Origin: Candidatus Undinarchaeales archaeon SRR5007147.bin71 | GTDB taxonomy: Archaea > Undinarchaeota > Undinarchaeia > Undinarchaeales > Undinarchaeaceae | Assembly (NCBI GenBank): GCA_014189675.1 | Contig: DVAE01000022.1 | Coordinates: forward strand, 1-26,172 | Length of the DNA stretch: 26,172 bases | Direction: 5' to 3' | Part shown: positions 4,914 to 26,172 of the stretch, in pieces | Layout: each line of letters begins with the position of its first letter | Position numbering within the stretch: position 1 is the stretch's first letter | Made by a program: the position numbers and the translations under genes | Notes under the pieces: model-generated | Seen by the model: only the letters and a program-made list of their open reading frames with translations | Database searches by the model: none | Told to the model about the DNA's origin: nothing

Positions 4914-5924
4914 ATGGGAGTAAATTTTCGGGATATCCTTGAAAGGGATGAAATTCGTCTTGATTCTCTTGCAGGAAAGCGCGTTGGAGTCGATGCTTTC
5001 AACACGCTGTATCAATTTCTGAGCACAATCAGGCAAAAAGACGGAACGCCATTGATGGATTCCAAAGGAAATGTAACTTCACATCTTTCAGGTATTTTCT
5101 ACAGAAATGTCCGCCTTCTTGAGCACAAAATCTTGCCAGTATATGTTTTTGACGGAGAACCTCCTTCACTGAAAGAGGATACAATAAAAGAGCGCAAGGA
5201 GCGCAAGGAAGAAGCACGGAAAAAATGGAGAGCCGCTATTGAGGCAGGAGATTTAGACAGGGCAAAAACATATTCTCAGGCAACTTCTCAATTAGATAAG
5301 AAAATGATAGATGAATCAAAAAAACTCCTAGATGTGCTGGGAATTCCACACGTCCAGGCCCCTTCTGAGGGAGAAGCGCAGGCCGCCTATATGTGCAAGA
5401 ACAGCGAGATAAATGTTGTCGCTTCCCAGGACTATGATTCCCTTCTATTCGGTTCTCCTATTTTAGTCAGGAATATAACAGTAAGCGGAAAACGAAAGGT
5501 TCCGCGCAGAAATATGTATGTAGCGGTGCATCCTGAAAAAATGGTTCTTCAGGAGCAACTTGAAAGGCTGGGGATAAGCCTGGAAAATCTCATAGAGATT
5601 GCAGTTCTCACAGGGACTGATTTCAATCCTGGCATCAAAGGAGTCGGTGCAAAAACCGCTCTTAAAGTAATAAAAAAGGATGGATTCGAAGCTGCAATTG
5701 AAAAATACGACTTCCAGGTTGATCCATATGCCGTCAAAAAAATATTCACAAATCCAGAGACAACTGATGACTACAAATTATCTTGGGGATTTCCTGACGA
5801 GGAAAAGGCGCTTGAGCTCCTTCACGAGAAGCACGAATTTTCACGCGAACGCATAACTAATGCTCTTTCAAAACTTGAGGAGGCTACAGGTAGTCGTGAC
5901 CAGACAAGCCTGGACACTTGGTGA
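4914..5924 (+). CDS. fen: Flap endonuclease 1 (FEN-1)
   Basis: Structure-specific 5' nuclease that removes 5' flaps during Okazaki-fragment maturation and base-excision repair. The N domain starts MGVNFRDIL with metal ligands D27 (GVDAFN) and D80 (VFDGEPP). The basic helical clamp (KERKERKEEARKKW) follows, then the I domain with APSEGEAQAA and SQDYDSLLFG, and the helix-two-turn-helix DNA-binding motif TGTDFNPGIKGVGAKTAL. All catalytic acids are present and 336 residues is normal. The C-terminus is a PCNA-binding PIP box, QTSLDTW, but the protein stops there, so the second aromatic residue normally found is missing. The stop codon overlaps the next start by one base (TGATG), implying translational coupling. 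Confidence 0.97.
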   Translation: MGVNFRDILERDEIRLDSLAGKRVGVDAFNTLYQFLSTIRQKDGTPLMDSKGNVTSHLSGIFYRNVRLLEHKILPVYVFDGEPPSLKEDTIKERKERKEEARKKWRAAIEAGDLDRAKTYSQATSQLDKKMIDESKKLLDVLGIPHVQAPSEGEAQAAYMCKNSEINVVASQDYDSLLFGSPILVRNITVSGKRKVPRRNMYVAVHPEKMVLQEQLERLGISLENLIEIAVLTGTDFNPGIKGVGAKTALKVIKKDGFEAAIEKYDFQVDPYAVKKIFTNPETTDDYKLSWGFPDEEKALELLHEKHEFSRERITNALSKLEEATGSRDQTSLDTW

Positions 5925-6331
5925 TGGAGATAATCGCAAGCGGTCACGCCAATGTTCTCGGAACCCATCCAACAACAATTGAGATAACAAAGGAAGCAGA
6001 GCTAAGTCTTCAGGGAAACTGCATCATCGCAGTCCGCGCAGATACAGCCTGCTCAGACCTTCCTGAAGAAATTAAAAAAGAACTACTCCGTGGAGGAAAA
6101 TTCAAGGTTACACTACAAGCCGGAGAACTTACTGAGGAGGTAATCGGAGAGGGCTCTCCTGACTTATTTTTCATACATCGAGAAGATATAGTACTTCGAA
6201 AATCAGAATTCATAGATGACAGAACTCTCCTTGTAAATTGCGACAAAGCCTGCTCAGACCTAAACAGGAAATTCATTGAAAAGCTTAAGAATCCGGAGAC
6301 AAAACTCCACTTTACAATCGAAAAAATATAA
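5924..6331 (+). CDS. DUF371 family protein
   Basis: A 135-residue archaeal conserved protein of unknown biochemical function. The start at 5924 (MEIIASGHANV, then THPTTIEITKE) matches the usual DUF371 opening; the upstream TTG/GTG codons at 5918 and 5921 add only two residues. The protein carries an internal duplication: ACSDL followed by a Lys/Glu-rich helix occurs at 42-46 and again at 109-113, one copy in each half, each after an acidic xD turn. The family usually has Ala-Lys rather than Cys-Ser at these places, as far as I recall. It is coupled to FEN-1 by a one-base overlap and ends 2 bp from the convergent peptidase gene. Confidence 0.85.
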   Translation: MEIIASGHANVLGTHPTTIEITKEAELSLQGNCIIAVRADTACSDLPEEIKKELLRGGKFKVTLQAGELTEEVIGEGSPDLFFIHREDIVLRKSEFIDDRTLLVNCDKACSDLNRKFIEKLKNPETKLHFTIEKI

Positions 6332-6333
6332 AC

Positions 6334-7347
6334 TTAAAGAATTTTACAGCCATTCTTCGTCACAAGGATATTATCTTCTATTCTGACTCCGTATTTCCCT
6401 TTGATATATATTGCCGGCTCAAGAGTAAAAACCATTCCTTCTTCAAGAACTTTGTCCGAGCCAGTCCTGATATTTGGTCTTTCGTGCACCTCGAGTCCTA
6501 TACCGTGCCCGAGTGAGTGCACCATCTTATATCCTTCTTTTTCAATTATATCGTCAGCCACCTTTGAAATATCCGAAATCCGGGCTTCGGGTTCTATCAA
6601 GTCTATTGCGGTTTTCTGCGCTTCCTCAACAGTTCTATAAATCTCCTTCAGTTCTTTCTCTGGCTCAAGAAGAAAAGTCCTCGTTATATCTGCTCCATAT
6701 CCTTCGTAAGAGCCACCACTGTCAACAAGAAGGCACTGTTTTCCAGGCTTACTCACACCTCTATAATGCGGAACTGCAGAATCATCGTCATAGGCAACTA
6801 TTGCACGGTAAAATTCATCCATATCTCTCATCGCATACTGTCGAAGAAGCTCAGCCCTTATCTCATTTCCCGGAAGGGAAGTATCTATTTTCTCTATAAT
6901 CTGCTTTGTCTCTTTTACAGCCTTTCCAATCAAGCCAAGCTCTTCTTTGGTCTTATATTGTCTCAAATCAAGAAGCGCCTCAGAAACATCCTTGGTTCGT
7001 ATTCCAACTTTCTGCATTTTTTCCTGCATTCGAAGAGGAAGGAATTTTCCATTCACTCCGATTGTATTGTTTCCAACTATCTTCTTGATATCCTTCAAAG
7101 TATTTTTTGTAGAAAACTCGCGAACATCCTTAACCCAGCTCTCCTCTGAAGCTCTCTCCATTTCAAAACCTGGTATGTAAAGAACTGGCTCTTCTCCAAT
7201 AAGAGCAAGGGAGCTCTCAAAGCCAGAAGCTCCTGTAAAATAATAAAAGAAAGGATCCTTCGCCTGAAGGTTTATCAGGAAAAGAGAATCTATTCCTTGC
7301 GCCTCAAAAATCCCAAGAGCTTTCTTCGTCTGCTCTTTTCCAATCAT
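6334..7347 (-). CDS. M24 family metallopeptidase (Xaa-Pro dipeptidase/aminopeptidase type)
   Basis: Cytosolic dimetal peptidase that cleaves N-terminal residues before proline or Xaa-Pro dipeptides. An N-terminal creatinase-like domain (about 1-130) precedes the pita-bread domain. All five metal ligands are visible: D209 (LVDSGG), D220 (GADITRTF), H281 (SLGHGIGLEVHE), E310 (FTLEPAIYI) and E324 (VRIEDN). Length (337) is slightly below the common ~350 but complete. Its start overlaps the end of the coiled-coil gene by 4 bp (ATGA), so it is the second gene of a two-gene unit. Substrate range (dipeptidase versus aminopeptidase) cannot be read from the sequence. Confidence 0.93.
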   Translation of the reverse strand: MIGKEQTKKALGIFEAQGIDSLFLINLQAKDPFFYYFTGASGFESSLALIGEEPVLYIPGFEMERASEESWVKDVREFSTKNTLKDIKKIVGNNTIGVNGKFLPLRMQEKMQKVGIRTKDVSEALLDLRQYKTKEELGLIGKAVKETKQIIEKIDTSLPGNEIRAELLRQYAMRDMDEFYRAIVAYDDDSAVPHYRGVSKPGKQCLLVDSGGSYEGYGADITRTFLLEPEKELKEIYRTVEEAQKTAIDLIEPEARISDISKVADDIIEKEGYKMVHSLGHGIGLEVHERPNIRTGSDKVLEEGMVFTLEPAIYIKGKYGVRIEDNILVTKNGCKIL

Positions 7348-8120: not shown

Positions 8121-8144
8121 CTTTTTTCCTTTCTCGTCCGCAAG

Positions 8145-8154
8145 TTTTTAATAA
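8145..8154 (+). promoter_or_regulatory. TATA-like box of the zinc-finger microprotein
   Basis: The sequence tttttaataa is centred about 25 nt before the ATG at 8175, the same spacing as at the other leaderless genes here. This supports the tiny downstream reading frame being expressed. Confidence 0.6.
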
Positions 8155-8174
8155 GTAATGATATTAAAGTATGT

Positions 8175-8303
8175 ATGGAACAAGCCGGAATATGTCAAAA
8201 CTGCAAAAAAGAGCTCGCGTCTTCACCCTGTTCTGTCTGCAAGTTTAATCTTTGTTCAGAATGCCGAGGCTCTCACAACTGTATGTCTTCAAATAAGGGT
8301 TAG
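8175..8303 (+). CDS. 42-residue zinc-finger microprotein (B-box-like Cys/His spacing)
   Basis: A short frame that is easy to miss. It has ATG at 8175, TAG at 8301 and 42 residues. Seven Cys and one His are laid out as C7-x2-C10-x8-C19-x2-C22-x4-C27-x2-C30-x3-H34-x1-C36, enough ligands for two zinc ions in a cross-brace. The spacing resembles B-box/RING-like small zinc domains rather than the CPxCG zinc ribbons common in archaea. Start choice is set by the TATA-like box 25 nt upstream; another ATG at 8171 is in a different frame. The 3' end overlaps the convergent aEF1B gene by 15 bp. Eight well-spaced ligands in 42 residues make chance unlikely. The target (RNA, DNA or protein) is unknown. 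Confidence 0.75.
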   Translation: MEQAGICQNCKKELASSPCSVCKFNLCSECRGSHNCMSSNKG

Positions 8304-8549
8304 AGCAAGCTGCTCTATACTACTGACTCCTTCAGTTTCCGATAAGGTCTTTTCAATAGAGTCAGGATCGCTCTTCGGATCCTTGTCATCAAGAATAAAA
8401 GTTGCAACAATCTGATCCATTCCATATATGAAAGGTTTTTTCTCAAGCGTTTCGAAATAAGAGATCTTCCTTATATCTTCCTCAAGCTTTTTCATATCAA
8501 CATCTGGTCCGTCCGGCCTTATTGCATAAATCAGTGCTGCTTTTCCCAT
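8289..8549 (-). CDS. ef1b: Translation elongation factor 1-beta (aEF1B)
   Basis: Nucleotide-exchange factor that recharges elongation factor 1-alpha with GTP. The 86-residue protein is the normal archaeal size and has the family layout: MGKAALIYAIRP strand, PDVDMKKLEEDIRK helix, a KKPFIYGMDQIVATFIL strand region, an acidic DDKDPKSDPDSIE helix start and the C-terminal EGVSSIEQLALTLI strand. It is monocistronic here with a TATA-like box ~27 nt upstream. Its 3' end overlaps the zinc-finger gene on the opposite strand. Confidence 0.93.
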   Translation of the reverse strand: MGKAALIYAIRPDGPDVDMKKLEEDIRKISYFETLEKKPFIYGMDQIVATFILDDKDPKSDPDSIEKTLSETEGVSSIEQLALTLI

Positions 8550-11892: not shown

Positions 11893-13025
11893 ATGATATA
11901 GGAATTCGGGCCTACGCCACAAAATCAAAAGGGATAGGCGGAACTATCAAAGAAGTTCCGGAAGATTTCATAGTCCAGGAAATCCAGAATGACATTAGTG
12001 TTTCCAGTCTCGAGCCCTCAAAGAATTTACCTTCTGATTCGGATGAATCTAAAGAATATACTCACTTTACTCTGGTCAAAAGGGACTGGAACCAGGAACA
12101 AATTCTTAAGCGTGTAGCAAGGCGCATCGGAATTTCAAGAAAGCGTTTCTCTGTATCGGGAACAAAAGACAAAAAAGCTCTTACTGCTCAAAAAGTTTCC
12201 GCCTGGAATATCTCAGCTCAGAATCTTTTAAATGTCCGAATAAAGGACTGCGAAATCGGAGACTTCTCATATTCCACTGGAAGGATAGAGCTTGGAGATC
12301 ACTGGGGAAACCGTTTCACAGTAAAAATTCTCGGAGCGTCAGGAAGTCCTGAACAAACACTCTCAGAACTCGAAGAGCTCGGCGGAATTCCAAATTTCTT
12401 TGGAGAACAGCGTTTCGGTCTGCGACTTAACAATCATATTGTTGGAAAACATATTCTTGAAGGAAATATAGAGTCTGCAGTTCACGAGTTCCTCGCAGGA
12501 ACTGGTGAAAGAGAGTCTAAAGAAGGAAGGCAGGCTCGCGAAGCTCTTGCAGAAAACTGGGGGGATTTTGGAAAGGCTCTTAAAGATTTTCCAGTCTATA
12601 TGCGCTTTGAACGGGCTCTTCTAGATCATCTTAATGTTCATTCAAATGACTATGTCGGAGCTTTCAAAAAACTGTCAAAACAGACATACAAATTTTTCAC
12701 CCACGCTTATCAGAGCTATCTTTTCAATATAATTCTAAGTGATCGTATCAATAAAGGCTCCTCTCTAGAAGGAAACGCCAGCATACTCGGCTACAAATCG
12801 GAGCCTGACGAGACCGAATCAGCACTTTTGGAAAAAGAAGGTCTGAGTTTGAAAGATTTCAAAGTCAGCCAGTTTCCTGAGGCCAGCGTTCGCGGAGACC
12901 GCCGAAATTTCCTCGCTGAAATTAAAAATTTGAGCTTTCAGGGTAAAAATAACATTACTCTGAGCTTCGATCTCACAAAAGGAGCTTACGCCACCATTCT
13001 TTTAAGGGAGGTTCAAAAGGCATAA
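11889..13025 (+). CDS. truD: tRNA pseudouridine(13) synthase TruD
   Basis: Isomerises uridine 13 of tRNA to pseudouridine. Motifs: VPEDFIVQEI near the N-terminus, HFTLVKRDWNQEQILKRVARR (60-80), the catalytic motif SGTKDKKALTAQ with D94, and NFFGEQRFGL, which builds the active site of this family. The 378-residue length is within the archaeal TruD range. It is the last gene of the operon that begins with TPI; the next TATA-like box overlaps its stop codon. Confidence 0.95.
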   Translation: MNDIGIRAYATKSKGIGGTIKEVPEDFIVQEIQNDISVSSLEPSKNLPSDSDESKEYTHFTLVKRDWNQEQILKRVARRIGISRKRFSVSGTKDKKALTAQKVSAWNISAQNLLNVRIKDCEIGDFSYSTGRIELGDHWGNRFTVKILGASGSPEQTLSELEELGGIPNFFGEQRFGLRLNNHIVGKHILEGNIESAVHEFLAGTGERESKEGRQAREALAENWGDFGKALKDFPVYMRFERALLDHLNVHSNDYVGAFKKLSKQTYKFFTHAYQSYLFNIILSDRINKGSSLEGNASILGYKSEPDETESALLEKEGLSLKDFKVSQFPEASVRGDRRNFLAEIKNLSFQGKNNITLSFDLTKGAYATILLREVQKA

Positions 13026-13052: not shown

Positions 13053-15080
13053 ATGGCTGAGCAGGAATATTCAGTTGATTTTTCAAAAATTGCTGAAAAA
13101 CTCGTAAAGAATAAAAAAGTCATTTTCTTCGTTTTACTAGCCTTAGTACTTCTTTTCTCAGCCTGGGTTCGCCTGATACCTGCAGACCAGTATTATCTGT
13201 CCGCGATGGACCCTTACTGGCATTATCGCCACTCAGCTGAAATAGTGGACCACGGTTATCCTGGAACTGAGTTAAGAGAAATAGATGGAAAGATGGTTCC
13301 TTGGGACTCTTTCCACAATGCACCTTACGGCGGGGAGGCCTCAAAAGAGTTCTACCAATATTTCACAGCCTATAGTTACATGTATTTAGGGAAGTTCCTT
13401 GTTGCCGATTTAATGACTTGGACTAAACTTACTCCAGTCTTTTTCGGAGTTCTCTCAGTTCTTTTCATGTATTTACTGGTTGCCCAGCTATTCGGCAGAG
13501 GGGCAGGTCTTGGCGCAGCCTTCATGTTTTCTATAGCTCCCTCCTTCCTCATGCGAAGCGTTGCAGGTTTCGCCGATACTGACGCTCCAATAGCCTTCTT
13601 TACAATACTCAGCTTCTATCTCTTTCTTTTAGCATGGGACCGAGAATCCTATTTATGGGGAGCTTCAGCCGGTCTTTCTATGGGGTTGTTCGCATTCACT
13701 TGGGGTGGCTACAGATTCGCCCCGCTATTTATAACAGCGGCTGTAGGTTTCCACCTGGTTTCAAAAATAACTCTTGCCTATGTCAGAAAAAAGAACATAA
13801 TTGATGAACTCAAAACCCACAGGAAAAAATACACAGTATTCGCGGTTTTCCTTCTTTCAATGTTCATATTCGTTACACTATTCAAAGGCATAGAGCTTGC
13901 AAAATTCTGGAGCGCAACAAGAGTGTTCTCCTCTCTGAAAGAAATGCAAAGAGAATCACTTGATACGGGCGTAAGGAATGTTTTCCTGACTGTTTCAGAA
14001 ATGAGCCCAGGAAGTCTTGTAGAAATCGTAAGCCGCGTTCACATAATCTCAGTATTCCTCTTCTTCGGATTCCTCGCACTTCTTCCCTTCGGTTTATGGA
14101 AAAAACTTTCAGGCAAATTCTTCCACTTGTCCTTCTTTACAATATGGTTGGCCGCTACCTTCTATTCGTCTTTCACGGCTGTTCGTTTCATAGAAATGTT
14201 TGCAATACCACTCGCCATCTTCAGTGGAATCGTAATTGCCGAAATGATTTCTAAAATATCAAGCAAAAAGCCAGCTATTTCTATATTTATAGTTGTTACA
14301 CTCATCGCACTTATTTTCTTCGTTCCAAACTATAACCTCAGCGGACCCTCATATTTCCAAACTTCAATCTCAATAGCATCTCAGTCAGGTCCCGGAGTTT
14401 CAGGTCCTTGGCTTGATTTCTATGATTGGGTAAAAACAGAAACTCCAAAGGGTGCAATATTCGCAAGCTGGTGGGATCCGGGTCACGCTCTTACAGCTCT
14501 CGGAGAGCGTCCAGCGGTAGCAGACGGAAGCCAAAATGACGAGCATGTCCACGATCTTGCCCTAATGTTCACATCAACTGATATGGACACTTCTCTGAGC
14601 CTTATGAAAGAGTATAATATCAGTTATTTCTTCACAAGTTCTGACCTTCTTCCAAAATACAGTGCAATAAGCTTCCTTGCAGGGGAGCCTGACTACTATC
14701 CACAGGTTCCACTGTCCCAGACAAGTCAGCAGGGAGACACAGTCGTCCTTGAATACAAACTCAGCCAGACTGAAGCTGTTTATGTATCCTTAACAGGACC
14801 CTTTGCATCAGCAACTCTCCAAAGTGGCTATAACACAGTTCCAATACAAAGAATTATAGTATTTTCAAGTGGTCAGCCGGTAAAATTCGAGACAGAGGCT
14901 GAGAACGCTGTTGATTATATGATATACGTCCTTCCTGACTATCAGTCTGTTTTCCTTCTTCCACCAAGGCTCGAGAACAATCTATTGACACGCTTGCATC
15001 TCTTTTCAGGAGCCGATGTTGATGGTCTGGAATTTGTAAAGGACTTTGGCGGAACTATTAAGGTTTTCAAAGTGAAATAA
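13053..15080 (+). CDS. aglB: Oligosaccharyltransferase AglB (STT3 family)
   Basis: Membrane enzyme that transfers the lipid-linked glycan to Asn in N-x-S/T sequons on the outer face of the membrane. The N-terminal half has about a dozen membrane spans and the first-loop acidic motif D53-P-Y-W (AMDPYWHYRHS). The second acidic motif is in AGFADTDAPI. The sequon-recognising motif W473-W-D-P-G-H begins the C-terminal globular domain, followed by ALGERPAVADGSQND. A possible DK-like element, D531-x3-K535-x3-I539, is one residue longer than the usual D-x2-K spacing. At 675 residues it is a short-form AglB with only ~200 residues of soluble domain. It stands first in a ~13-kb glycosylation region; sequon-rich surface genes at the left end are likely targets. 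Confidence 0.96.
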   Translation: MAEQEYSVDFSKIAEKLVKNKKVIFFVLLALVLLFSAWVRLIPADQYYLSAMDPYWHYRHSAEIVDHGYPGTELREIDGKMVPWDSFHNAPYGGEASKEFYQYFTAYSYMYLGKFLVADLMTWTKLTPVFFGVLSVLFMYLLVAQLFGRGAGLGAAFMFSIAPSFLMRSVAGFADTDAPIAFFTILSFYLFLLAWDRESYLWGASAGLSMGLFAFTWGGYRFAPLFITAAVGFHLVSKITLAYVRKKNIIDELKTHRKKYTVFAVFLLSMFIFVTLFKGIELAKFWSATRVFSSLKEMQRESLDTGVRNVFLTVSEMSPGSLVEIVSRVHIISVFLFFGFLALLPFGLWKKLSGKFFHLSFFTIWLAATFYSSFTAVRFIEMFAIPLAIFSGIVIAEMISKISSKKPAISIFIVVTLIALIFFVPNYNLSGPSYFQTSISIASQSGPGVSGPWLDFYDWVKTETPKGAIFASWWDPGHALTALGERPAVADGSQNDEHVHDLALMFTSTDMDTSLSLMKEYNISYFFTSSDLLPKYSAISFLAGEPDYYPQVPLSQTSQQGDTVVLEYKLSQTEAVYVSLTGPFASATLQSGYNTVPIQRIIVFSSGQPVKFETEAENAVDYMIYVLPDYQSVFLLPPRLENNLLTRLHLFSGADVDGLEFVKDFGGTIKVFKVK

Positions 15081-15093
15081 TTGCCAAGAGAAA

Positions 15094-15104
15094 GCTTTAA
15101 TAAT
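15094..15104 (+). promoter_or_regulatory. TATA-like box of the structured RNA candidate
   Basis: The element ctttaataat is centred near 15099, 14 bp or so after the aglB stop codon. With this window's usual 25-28 nt spacing, transcription would begin at about 15124-15127, exactly at the base of the first hairpin. Confidence 0.5.
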
Positions 15105-15124
15105 ACAATTTACTAATGCTTAGT

Positions 15125-15222
15125 TTATGTGGTTTCCCTAAAAGATACTACATAATCTTAGCAGCTATATGCTGCAGGCGCCTCCCTTCTGTGCAAAAAC
15201 ACAGACCACCACCGGGGGGCGC
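15125..15222 (+). ncRNA. Candidate structured ncRNA, three tandem hairpins, unknown family
   Basis: Hairpin P1 pairs 15125-15132 with 15148-15155 (8 bp, one G-U), with a possible inner TTT/AAA extension. P2 is GCAGC 15161-15165 with GCTGC 15171-15175 around TATAT. P3 has a 9-bp outer stem 15178-15186/15214-15222 (one U-G), an inner 6-bp stem TCTGTG 15188-15193/CACAGA 15200-15205, loop CAAAAA, and an unpaired CCACCACC (15206-15213) on the 3' side. Both wobble pairs would be A-C mismatches on the minus strand, so the plus strand is favoured. A TATA-like box is correctly placed upstream, and the next gene has its own box after the structure. It is not a tRNA, 5S, SRP or RNase P RNA. It could instead be a leader of the downstream gene if transcription runs through. 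Confidence 0.55.
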
Positions 15223-15240
15223 ATACCTTTCTCATAAGAG

Positions 15241-15248
15241 TTATAAAG
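15241..15248 (+). promoter_or_regulatory. TATA-like box of the nucleotide-sugar dehydrogenase
   Basis: ttataaag is centred 25 nt before the ATG at 15270, so the dehydrogenase can be transcribed independently of the upstream hairpin region as a leaderless message. Confidence 0.65.
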
Positions 15249-15269
15249 CATCTAATCAACCTCTAGAGC

Positions 15270-16508
15270 ATGAAAGTAAGCGTTATAGGAACTGGATACG
15301 TCGGCCTGATAAGTGGAGTGGGCTATGCCAGCCAGGGGCATGATGTTATCTGTGTTGACGTAATAGAGGAAAAAGTCGCAAAAATAAACGCGGGCGAGCC
15401 CCCAATACACGAGGCAGGCCTTCCTGAGAGACTAAGACAGGTTCTGACCACGGGAAAATTCAGAGCAACTACTGATATCACAGATGCTGTAGAAAATTCA
15501 GATATCTGCTTCATCTCTGTAGGAACTCCCTCTGCCGCTGACGGTTCAATAGACCTAAAATACATAGAACAGGCTTCAAAGGACCTCGGAATAGCACTAA
15601 AAAACAAAAATTCCTATTTCACAATTGTTGTTAAAAGCACAGTAAGTCCGGGAACTACAGAGGGAACTGTAATAAAAAATGTAGAGGAAGAATCAGGCAA
15701 GAAAGCGGGACAGGATTTCGGTGTCTGTATGAATCCTGAATTCCTGAGGGAAGGAAAGGCAATAGAAGATTTTGATAATCCTGACAGAATAGTCATAGGA
15801 AGTTTCGATGAAAAAAGCTCAGAATCTCTCAAAGATCTCAACAAGGCCTTCAGCTGCCCTGTTCTTGAAACTCCCCTTTCAACAGCTGAAATGATAAAAT
15901 ACGTCAGCAATGCCTTCCTTGCAGTGAAAATTTCATACGCAAATGAAGTTGCTGAATTCTGCAAGAAAATAGGAGCCGACCCATACGAAGTTTTCAAAGG
16001 CGTCGGAATGGATAAACGCATTAATCCAGCATTCTTCAACTCAGGCCTTGGCTGGGGCGGAAGCTGCTTTCCAAAAGATACACGGGAATTCGCGGACGCG
16101 GCAAAAAGAGAGGGCGCAAATCCACGAATTGTTGATGCTGCAATCGAGACAAACAAAATACTCCCTTCTAAAATAGTTGAGCTTGCCGGAGATGTTTCCG
16201 GGAAAACAGTTGCAGTTCTCGGTCTTGCCTTCAAAGCCGGAACTGACGATGTCCGTGAATCACAGGCTGTCGAAGTTATAAAACTTCTGAATGAGAAAGG
16301 GGCAAAGATACAGGCCTATGACCCAGAAGCAGCAGAAGTCGAGGGTGTAGACAGAGCGGAAACAATGGAAAAAGCTCTCGAAGGCGCTGAGATCTGCCTT
16401 GTTCTGACTGAGTGGCCTGAATTTGCAAATATTCCTTTCTCTGGAAAAATAATTGACGGAAGAAATATAGTCGAAAACAGGGAAAACTACGAGGGGCTCT
16501 TCTGGTAG
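15270..16508 (+). CDS. UDP-glucose/UDP-sugar 6-dehydrogenase
   Basis: Two-step NAD-dependent oxidation of a UDP-hexose (most likely UDP-glucose to UDP-glucuronate) in the cytosol. The N-terminal Rossmann motif is GTGYVGLISGVGYAS. SVGTPSAADGSIDL, KSTVSPGTTEG and NPEFLREGKAIEDF are the conserved nucleotide and substrate contacts. The catalytic cysteine is C266 in GWGGSCFPKDT, and the C-terminal domain begins with VLGLAFKAGTDDVRES. The 412 residues are normal. UDP-GlcNAc or UDP-ManNAc dehydrogenases share these motifs. The UDP-glucuronate epimerase-like gene directly downstream makes UDP-glucose the best guess. The stop is 30 bp from the next start. Confidence 0.92.
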   Translation: MKVSVIGTGYVGLISGVGYASQGHDVICVDVIEEKVAKINAGEPPIHEAGLPERLRQVLTTGKFRATTDITDAVENSDICFISVGTPSAADGSIDLKYIEQASKDLGIALKNKNSYFTIVVKSTVSPGTTEGTVIKNVEEESGKKAGQDFGVCMNPEFLREGKAIEDFDNPDRIVIGSFDEKSSESLKDLNKAFSCPVLETPLSTAEMIKYVSNAFLAVKISYANEVAEFCKKIGADPYEVFKGVGMDKRINPAFFNSGLGWGGSCFPKDTREFADAAKREGANPRIVDAAIETNKILPSKIVELAGDVSGKTVAVLGLAFKAGTDDVRESQAVEVIKLLNEKGAKIQAYDPEAAEVEGVDRAETMEKALEGAEICLVLTEWPEFANIPFSGKIIDGRNIVENRENYEGLFW

Positions 16509-16510
16509 AT

Positions 16511-16518
16511 ATATTAAA
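16511..16518 (+). promoter_or_regulatory. TATA-like box of the UDP-glucuronate epimerase-like gene
   Basis: atattaaa is centred 25 nt before the ATG at 16539, and so helps choose that start over the ATG at 16530. Confidence 0.55.
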
Positions 16519-16538
16519 AAGAAGAACTAATGGGATTT

Positions 16539-25176: not shown

Positions 25177-26172
25177 TCAAATTGCAGTAGATCTTACAGT
25201 GTTTGCTATAACCTCTGCCGGATCCTCCATTGAGCTTATCATTTTTTCGGCAATTTCCCTCTGCCGGCTCTTATGTTCTCCATTTCTTCTTATAAGGTCA
25301 GAAGCCTGCTCAAGTAAGCCCTCTTTAGTAGTTCTGGAGACCAGCTGTTTCTCTATTACATAATCCTCATAAAAAGTTCTTATTGGTCTGCAGGCAAGTG
25401 TCGGAGTTCCAAGAAGAGCTGACTCAAGCGTCATAGTTCCTCCTCCTCCAATAAACAATTCTGAGTGATAAATAAGGCTCTGCGCATCTACGACTTTGTC
25501 CGGAACCAAAACCCGTTTTGCCCCTATATTTCTTATCTCCTCGGCCTGTTCTGGATATCTTGCAAGAACAACTATTCTATGATCAGGAAAATTTTCAGAC
25601 ATCTCCGTTATCATAGGCTTAATCAGTACTTTTTCTCCATTCGAACTTTCATTAAGATAAGCTGCGTTTGTTTCAGAGGTTCTGAAAGTTATAATTTTCT
25701 CATTTTTCAGTTCAAGCATACTGAGAACCTCATTACTTGGCTTAAAATCCCTCAGCCAAGCGACCGGGTCCAACGCGTCGTACTGAACTACCCTTTCAGG
25801 AGGCATTCCATACTTTGCCCAAACTTCCTTTGGTATGAGCTTCGGGGCGACAATCTTTTCAGATAGCGGAACTGACAGCCTTGACTGAGCTGTTGCCTCA
25901 GGTATATCATTGATACAAATGTGAGGTATTCCTAGTCCAAAAGCGACTCTGGCCGCCTCTGGAGAGGACAAAGAAAGGGCTATATTCGGACTTTCCTTAG
26001 CCACAATACCGTTCATTTCGCGCATTCTTTCTATACTCGCGCCAAGCTTTCCTTCGAGGCTCGCGCCTCCGTGCTTTCCCACGACGACAGCTTCTATTCT
26101 CTTCGTCAGTAGAAGCTCAGAAGTTTCCTTATAGTCTCTTGTTGTTACGAAAACTTCCTCTCCGCTCTTCTC
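25177..26172 (-). CDS. DUF354 family glycosyltransferase-like protein (5' end outside window)
   Basis: The frame is open to the right edge, adding 30 codons before the GTG at 26082, so the first ~20-30 residues of the protein are missing. Those extra codons read EEVFVTTRDYKE followed by EAVVVGKHGG, which matches the DUF354 N-terminal domain. The family has a GT-B fold akin to UDP-GlcNAc 2-epimerase/MurG. The second domain shows IRNIGAKRVLVPDKV and FIGGGGTMTLESALLGTPTL, the nucleotide-binding C-terminal motif. DUF354 genes are frequent in archaeal polysaccharide loci but no reaction is assigned. It precedes the GT4 gene by 1 bp and is the most upstream visible gene of the minus-strand operon. 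Confidence 0.85.
   Translation of the reverse strand, partial: EKSGEEVFVTTRDYKETSELLLTKRIEAVVVGKHGGASLEGKLGASIERMREMNGIVAKESPNIALSLSSPEAARVAFGLGIPHICINDIPEATAQSRLSVPLSEKIVAPKLIPKEVWAKYGMPPERVVQYDALDPVAWLRDFKPSNEVLSMLELKNEKIITFRTSETNAAYLNESSNGEKVLIKPMITEMSENFPDHRIVVLARYPEQAEEIRNIGAKRVLVPDKVVDAQSLIYHSELFIGGGGTMTLESALLGTPTLACRPIRTFYEDYVIEKQLVSRTTKEGLLEQASDLIRRNGEHKSRQREIAEKMISSMEDPAEVIANTVRSTAI

Follow-up and report, generated by a model that had tools for sequence, protein, structure and literature searches.

The DNA that was analyzed (the window) is a stretch of 26,172 nucleotides from SRR5007147.bin71, a marine Undinarchaeales MAG of 0.62 Mb with 39 contigs, the largest of which has a size of 54.083 kb (PMC7414124); the assembly that carries the window comprises 623,718 bp on 39 contigs. 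The plus strand contains aglB (13053-15080, STT3 family; PF02516, 3e-32) and, further downstream, ugd (15270-16508; PF03721, 1.5e-60), which encodes a protein of the UDP-glucose/GDP-mannose dehydrogenase family and is followed on its 3′-side by an epimerase gene and a gene for a PMT-family glycosyltransferase. The gap between aglB and ugd has a length of 189 bp (15081-15269) and had been called the only sizeable gap in the window. This is correct in effect; a further 217 bp between the ORFs 8158-8415 and 8633 are mostly occupied by the aEF-1beta gene (8289-8549, minus strand). For comparison two congeners were used, archaeon UBA55 and Euryarchaeota archaeon ARS1358. In UBA55 (genome G002, contig C17:8990-11086) the aglB match is split into residues 1-303 and 298-675, perhaps due to a frameshift or to a MAG assembly error.

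Folding of the single sequence and of the alignment revealed three tandem hairpins on the plus strand of the gap. Hairpin 1 (15125-15155) contains the invariant loop segments UUUCCC and AAAAGAUA and is followed by hairpin 2 (15161-15175). Hairpin 3 (15178-15222) is composed of a 9-bp lower stem, a one-sided bulge with the sequence CCACCACC (15206-15213), and a 6-bp upper stem. The preliminary description had proposed the same coordinates for all three hairpins, the same architecture of hairpin 3 with CCACCACC unpaired, and the two wobble pairs G15131-T15149 and T15183-G15217, and all of these features could be verified. The minimum free energy of the 102-nt core was -42.6 kcal/mol (z of about -6), which was not matched by any of 200 shuffles. 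When 2006 sliding windows on both strands were analyzed (mean z -0.2, standard deviation 1.15), the lowest value of all, -7.8, was found for the 102-nt window that starts at 15133. The second-lowest value (-6.3) belonged to the minus strand at 25871-25972, within a coding frame.

It had also been claimed that the plus strand is the RNA strand, and the comparison of the three species was in agreement with this. In each of them the fold of the plus strand was superior to that of the minus strand (z of -5.9, -4.5, and -3.8 vs. -2.3, -0.6, and -1.8). The two further helix substitutions that preserve pairing are both changes from C to T opposite a G: the outer G-C pair of hairpin 2 is a G-U pair in ARS1358, the outer G-C pair of hairpin 3 is a G-U pair in UBA55, and both changes keep the pairing on the plus strand only. 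Fold strength and wobble pairs thus favor the plus strand.

For the analysis of promoters a matrix of 14 positions was trained on the 5′-flanks of 35 tRNA genes of the same genome, with the candidate excluded. The BRE/TATA motif GAAAGCTTTAATAA at 15090-15103 on the plus strand, upstream of the hairpins, had a score of 14.3 bits and occupied rank 1 of the 52,318 positions in the window. It equals the best tRNA promoter according to the matrix, that of tRNA-Ala-GGC (GCAAGCTTTAATAA, 14.4 bits). Only about 0.01 matches as strong as GAAAGCTTTAATAA are expected per dinucleotide-shuffled window, and none was found in 2000 shuffles of the gap. Both the motif and its spacing to hairpin 1 are identical in the two congeners. 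A TATA-like box ahead of the hairpins had been noticed from the letters of the sequence, and its rank showed that it is stronger than could be told at that stage.

The matrix also detected promoters of protein-coding genes. The second-best match at 8140 is located 35 nt ahead of an ATG at 8175, and the matches at 13015, 15234, and 20058 are located 38, 36, and 36 nt ahead of the ATGs of aglB, ugd, and a phosphomannomutase-like gene, respectively. As a side observation, in the region 8140-8305 the ATG at 8175 opens a short ORF that is rich in Cys (zinc-ribbon-like) and for which the listed start at 8158 is probably too early. An offset of 35–38 nt from the start of the motif to the start site was calibrated on the leaderless genes at 8175, 13053, 15270, and 20094. 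Because the matrix recovers the starts of real leaderless genes, the predicted transcription start of the RNA was placed at 15125-15128, within the interval 15124-15128 at the foot of hairpin 1, in agreement with the earlier proposal that the start coincides with the first stem. The TATA box that had been assigned to ugd (15241-15248; 7.4 bits, rank 65) is likewise a separate promoter, which is kept in all three species; the motif starts 36 nt ahead of the ATG, which is the spacing of a leaderless gene. The box upstream of the hairpins is thus a strong start site, and the matrix detects mRNA promoters (8140) as well. As such promoters also drive mRNAs, the box by itself does not prove the presence of a separate RNA gene.

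Two additional observations were made at promoters and tRNA genes. The sequence CTAATCAAC is common to the promoter of the SRP RNA (locus L032, minus strand) and the ugd promoter (15241-15269 of the window), about 10 nt past the TATA box, and similar GCTAAT motifs were found past the TATA boxes of several tRNA genes; this could possibly be a proximal promoter element of the lineage. At L032:2350-2470 (contig C32 of genome G000) a unit of about 58 bp, GCGCTTGAGTTAGTTCACAAATGACGCGGGGTTATTCACGAAGTGAATCTGACCC, is present in two tandem copies 3′ of the gene for tRNA-Ser(UGA).

The probable 3′-end region of the RNA is the pyrimidine-rich sequence CCTTTCTC (15223-15235), which is weak as a terminator. 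The T content over the first 20 nt past hairpin 3 is 0.40, identical to the mean of the tRNA 3′-flanks, the longest T run has a length of 3, and no classical terminator was called past hairpin 3.

Each of the three genomes contains one copy of the RNA, with the same three-hairpin fold. For the gap, the sequence identity amounts to 93% with UBA55 and to 89% with ARS1358. The RNA is more conserved than the fourfold degenerate sites of ugd, with 17 of 100 (17%) vs. 62 of 172 (36%) variable sites (p = 8e-4). The variation is unevenly distributed within the 100 columns of the three-species alignment, and only 4 of 62 paired columns are variable compared to 13 of 38 unpaired columns (Fisher p = 6e-4). 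Neither congener has retained the outermost U-A pair of hairpin 1. Two one-sided changes from G-C to G-U and no pair changed on both sides were found, and the missing covariation signal can be explained by the low divergence of the three sequences. Hairpin 3 of ARS1358 has the apical loop C(UUCG)G, an unusually stable RNA tetraloop, and 1 nt of its stem is deleted; a 6-bp upper stem is still predicted in the centroid fold.

Outside the genus the RNA was not detected. When the three sequences were combined into a covariance model, no match was obtained in the remaining three families of the order with a threshold as permissive as E = 1, and a search of 394 archaeal genomes retrieved the three congeners only and none of the other 391; as the model was built from three close sequences, fast-evolving homologues could escape it. 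Collections of phages, plasmids, and viruses also did not contain a match to the RNA. In members of the three other families, a gene follows aglB almost directly, without a gap, and ugd is located elsewhere with different neighbors. On the basis of these searches, the RNA appears to occur only in the genus. In the literature library that was queried, no paper on small RNAs of Undinarchaeum was retrieved.

The earlier proposal, a structured RNA that has not been described before and has a plus-strand promoter of its own, is well supported by the promoter, by the fold, and by the conservation in the three species. The locus very probably is a structured RNA gene that is transcribed, and it probably represents a true archaeal orphan sRNA gene of about 100 nt. 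Among the explanations that were weighed, a separate trans-acting small RNA is the most likely and a structured leader of ugd comes next.

As a cis-acting leader of ugd, i.e., a riboswitch or an attenuator, a transcript that starts at 15126 would comprise both the hairpins and ugd, and ugd expression would be controlled by the fold. The hairpins are indeed on the same strand, 47 nt ahead of the ugd start, the sequence that connects hairpin 3 to the ATG is 94–98% identical, and structured RNAs from archaeal 5′-UTRs exist (PMC3124441). However, ugd has a TATA box of its own with the leaderless spacing of 36 nt (counted from the start of the motif) that is also found at aglB and other genes. In addition, there is no SD sequence that could be masked and no strong U-tract past hairpin 3. 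The other families of the order do not have such an element upstream of their ugd homologues, and recurrence before homologous genes was found neither in these three families nor in the rest of the 394 archaeal genomes. A leader function is therefore considered unlikely.

Still less likely is the possibility that the locus is not an RNA gene. In this case the hairpins would belong to the 3′-part of the aglB transcript, as a terminator or as an element that affects its stability, and would lie next to a promoter region that is conserved as DNA. While the hairpin region indeed lies 44 nt past the aglB stop codon, it is separated from aglB by the top-scoring promoter, which is at the correct distance. 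Short intergenic stretches are well kept in the genus anyway (e.g., 16506-16529 is identical in all three species), but here there are three hairpins with stems that are more conserved than the loops, and a fold that is far stronger on one strand.

Membership in a known RNA class was analyzed with several approaches. No family was found in the window when 4227 Rfam families were searched at gathering cut-offs, and a permissive Rfam scan yielded only matches at chance level. ARAGORN did not find a tRNA or tmRNA in the window, and the C (RUGAUGA) and D (CUGA) boxes of C/D box sRNAs are absent from the RNA sequence. The only lead from the permissive scan was the H/ACA RNA Pab91 (RF02795) with 13.8 bits (E 4.6), compared to a family cut-off of 71 bits. 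It is a weak whole-length match, in which the similarity spans the 9-bp GC-rich lower stem and the following ANA box only. An AUA box is in fact present directly after the lower stem of hairpin 3 (15223-15225), and AUA is an accepted variant of ACA (PMC7991803). Hairpin 3 and this box could thus direct pseudouridylation as an atypical H/ACA guide. Archaeal H/ACA RNAs have a K-turn or K-loop 5–6 nt above the pocket, and the target uridine is 14–16 nt from the box (PMC7991803). The RNA described here differs from Pab91 and from this scheme: neither a K-turn/K-loop nor a tandem G-A is present in hairpins 1 or 3, and the C(UUCG)G apex rules out a K-loop in ARS1358. Furthermore, the internal loop of 1 nt by 8 nt is one-sided and does not form a bipartite pocket, and the distance from the upper stem to the box is 17 nt rather than 14–16 nt. 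Pairing to rRNA, which is reported below, was not above shuffles across all three species. An H/ACA guide was thus rejected as identity and is regarded as very improbable. These results are in agreement with the statement that no known RNA class fits.

The RNase P RNA, which is missing from the assembly, was also rejected as identity of the RNA. The five other genomes of the order all contain it, with the 23S gene as its neighbor in ARS1358, and therefore its absence from the assembly looks like missing sequence. A second RNase P-like match (62 bits, cut-off 84) was observed in genome G003 on contig C34:3118-3398 (L038), in addition to the full one on contig C23. A small protein gene can practically be dismissed, because the 75-aa ORF at 15116, although open in the window and, through two offsetting indels, in ARS1358, has its ATG about 10 nt upstream of the predicted transcription start, is frameshifted to 40 aa in UBA55, has a frame that is shifted by 1-nt indels and a middle that is read in differing frames, and has substitutions that track stems and loops rather than codons.

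Putative targets were searched with several approaches. Pairing to 16S and 23S rRNA, for which the rRNA of ARS1358 was used, was not above shuffles for the species of the window or for ARS1358. With the UBA55 RNA and the 16S rRNA, again that of ARS1358, 4 of 300 shuffles were as good, and this pairing was not common to the other two species. Independent of this, it was observed that contig C20 of genome G000 terminates within the 16S rRNA gene, and that the 16S rRNA match on this contig is interrupted at 6254-6328, around model positions 828-902 (pieces 5440-6254, 6256-6283, and 6328-6585). The best energies of the invariant loops against the gene starts in the window were within the range of shuffles (27 of 200 and 79 of 200). 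It had been suggested that CCTCCC in hairpin 3 could face GGAGG-type sites. This idea turned out to be weak, because an SD-like site was found at only 2 of the 26 gene starts in the window, leaving little to act on, and the other 24 are devoid of it. The suggested regulation of the glycosylation genes also did not gain support; its sole basis was the position of the RNA, and the order aglB-RNA-ugd was not seen outside the genus.

Returning to a separate small RNA gene, the promoter, the fold, the strand, and the conservation within the genus were all read from the sequence, and from them we infer that the gene is transcribed, where exactly the transcript starts and ends, that it acts in trans, and which segments make contact. 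The tRNA-type BRE/TATA box at 15090-15103 would recruit the RNA polymerase, and transcription would begin at around 15126, at the base of the first hairpin. The product would be an RNA of about 100 nt with three tandem hairpins, which would end shortly past 15222 and would work in trans as a structured molecule. The invariant unpaired segments UUUCCC, AAAAGAUA, and CCACCACC are likely contact sites, which would touch a target RNA or a protein, and the apical loop of hairpin 3 would merely cap the stem. The chances that the RNA acts in trans by contact via these segments are about even. The account as a whole, a stand-alone gene for a trans-acting sRNA with a tRNA-type promoter and three hairpins, seems somewhat better than an even bet.

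Several characterized archaeal RNAs offer parallels. The Pyrococcus abyssi RNAs sRk11, sRk28, and sRk33 (SscA) are single-copy intergenic ncRNAs of unknown function, with hairpins that are conserved in relatives (PMC3124441). They resemble the RNA described here in being single-copy and intergenic, in their conserved hairpins, and in the co-directional flanking ORFs of all three. In addition, sRk11 and sRk33 share with it a BRE/TATA box upstream (PMC3124441). In contrast, the sRk RNAs have been shown by Northern blot analysis and primer extension and exhibit compensatory changes (PMC3124441), while the present RNA is known from its sequence. Another difference is that sRk33 overlaps the promoter predicted for the gene that follows it (PMC3124441), whereas the present RNA is predicted to end before the ugd promoter. 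A sequence or Rfam relationship to the P. abyssi sRk RNAs was not found. The Methanosarcina sRNAs sRNA162 and sRNA154 are trans-acting and intergenic and have experimentally supported mRNA targets (PMC3510493, PMC5867862). The intergenic location and the possible pairing through unpaired segments are similar; in contrast to these sRNAs, the target searches for the present RNA did not find any target.

It is tempting to speculate, as a rather unlikely possibility, that the locus encodes a lineage-specific, highly expressed housekeeping-type RNA of the Undinarchaeales, of an undescribed class that is neither a guide, nor SRP RNA, nor RNase P RNA, nor a classic mRNA-pairing sRNA, or alternatively a ligand-sensing leader for nucleotide-sugar metabolism. 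A genome of 0.62 Mb with almost no intergenic DNA keeps a 100-nt RNA behind a promoter that matches the best tRNA promoter. The retention of the RNA and its tRNA-grade promoter in such a compact genome suggests that the RNA is used and is possibly abundant. Taken together, the promoter calibration yields an exact predicted 5′-end, and the same matrix could reveal further RNA genes in the lineage.
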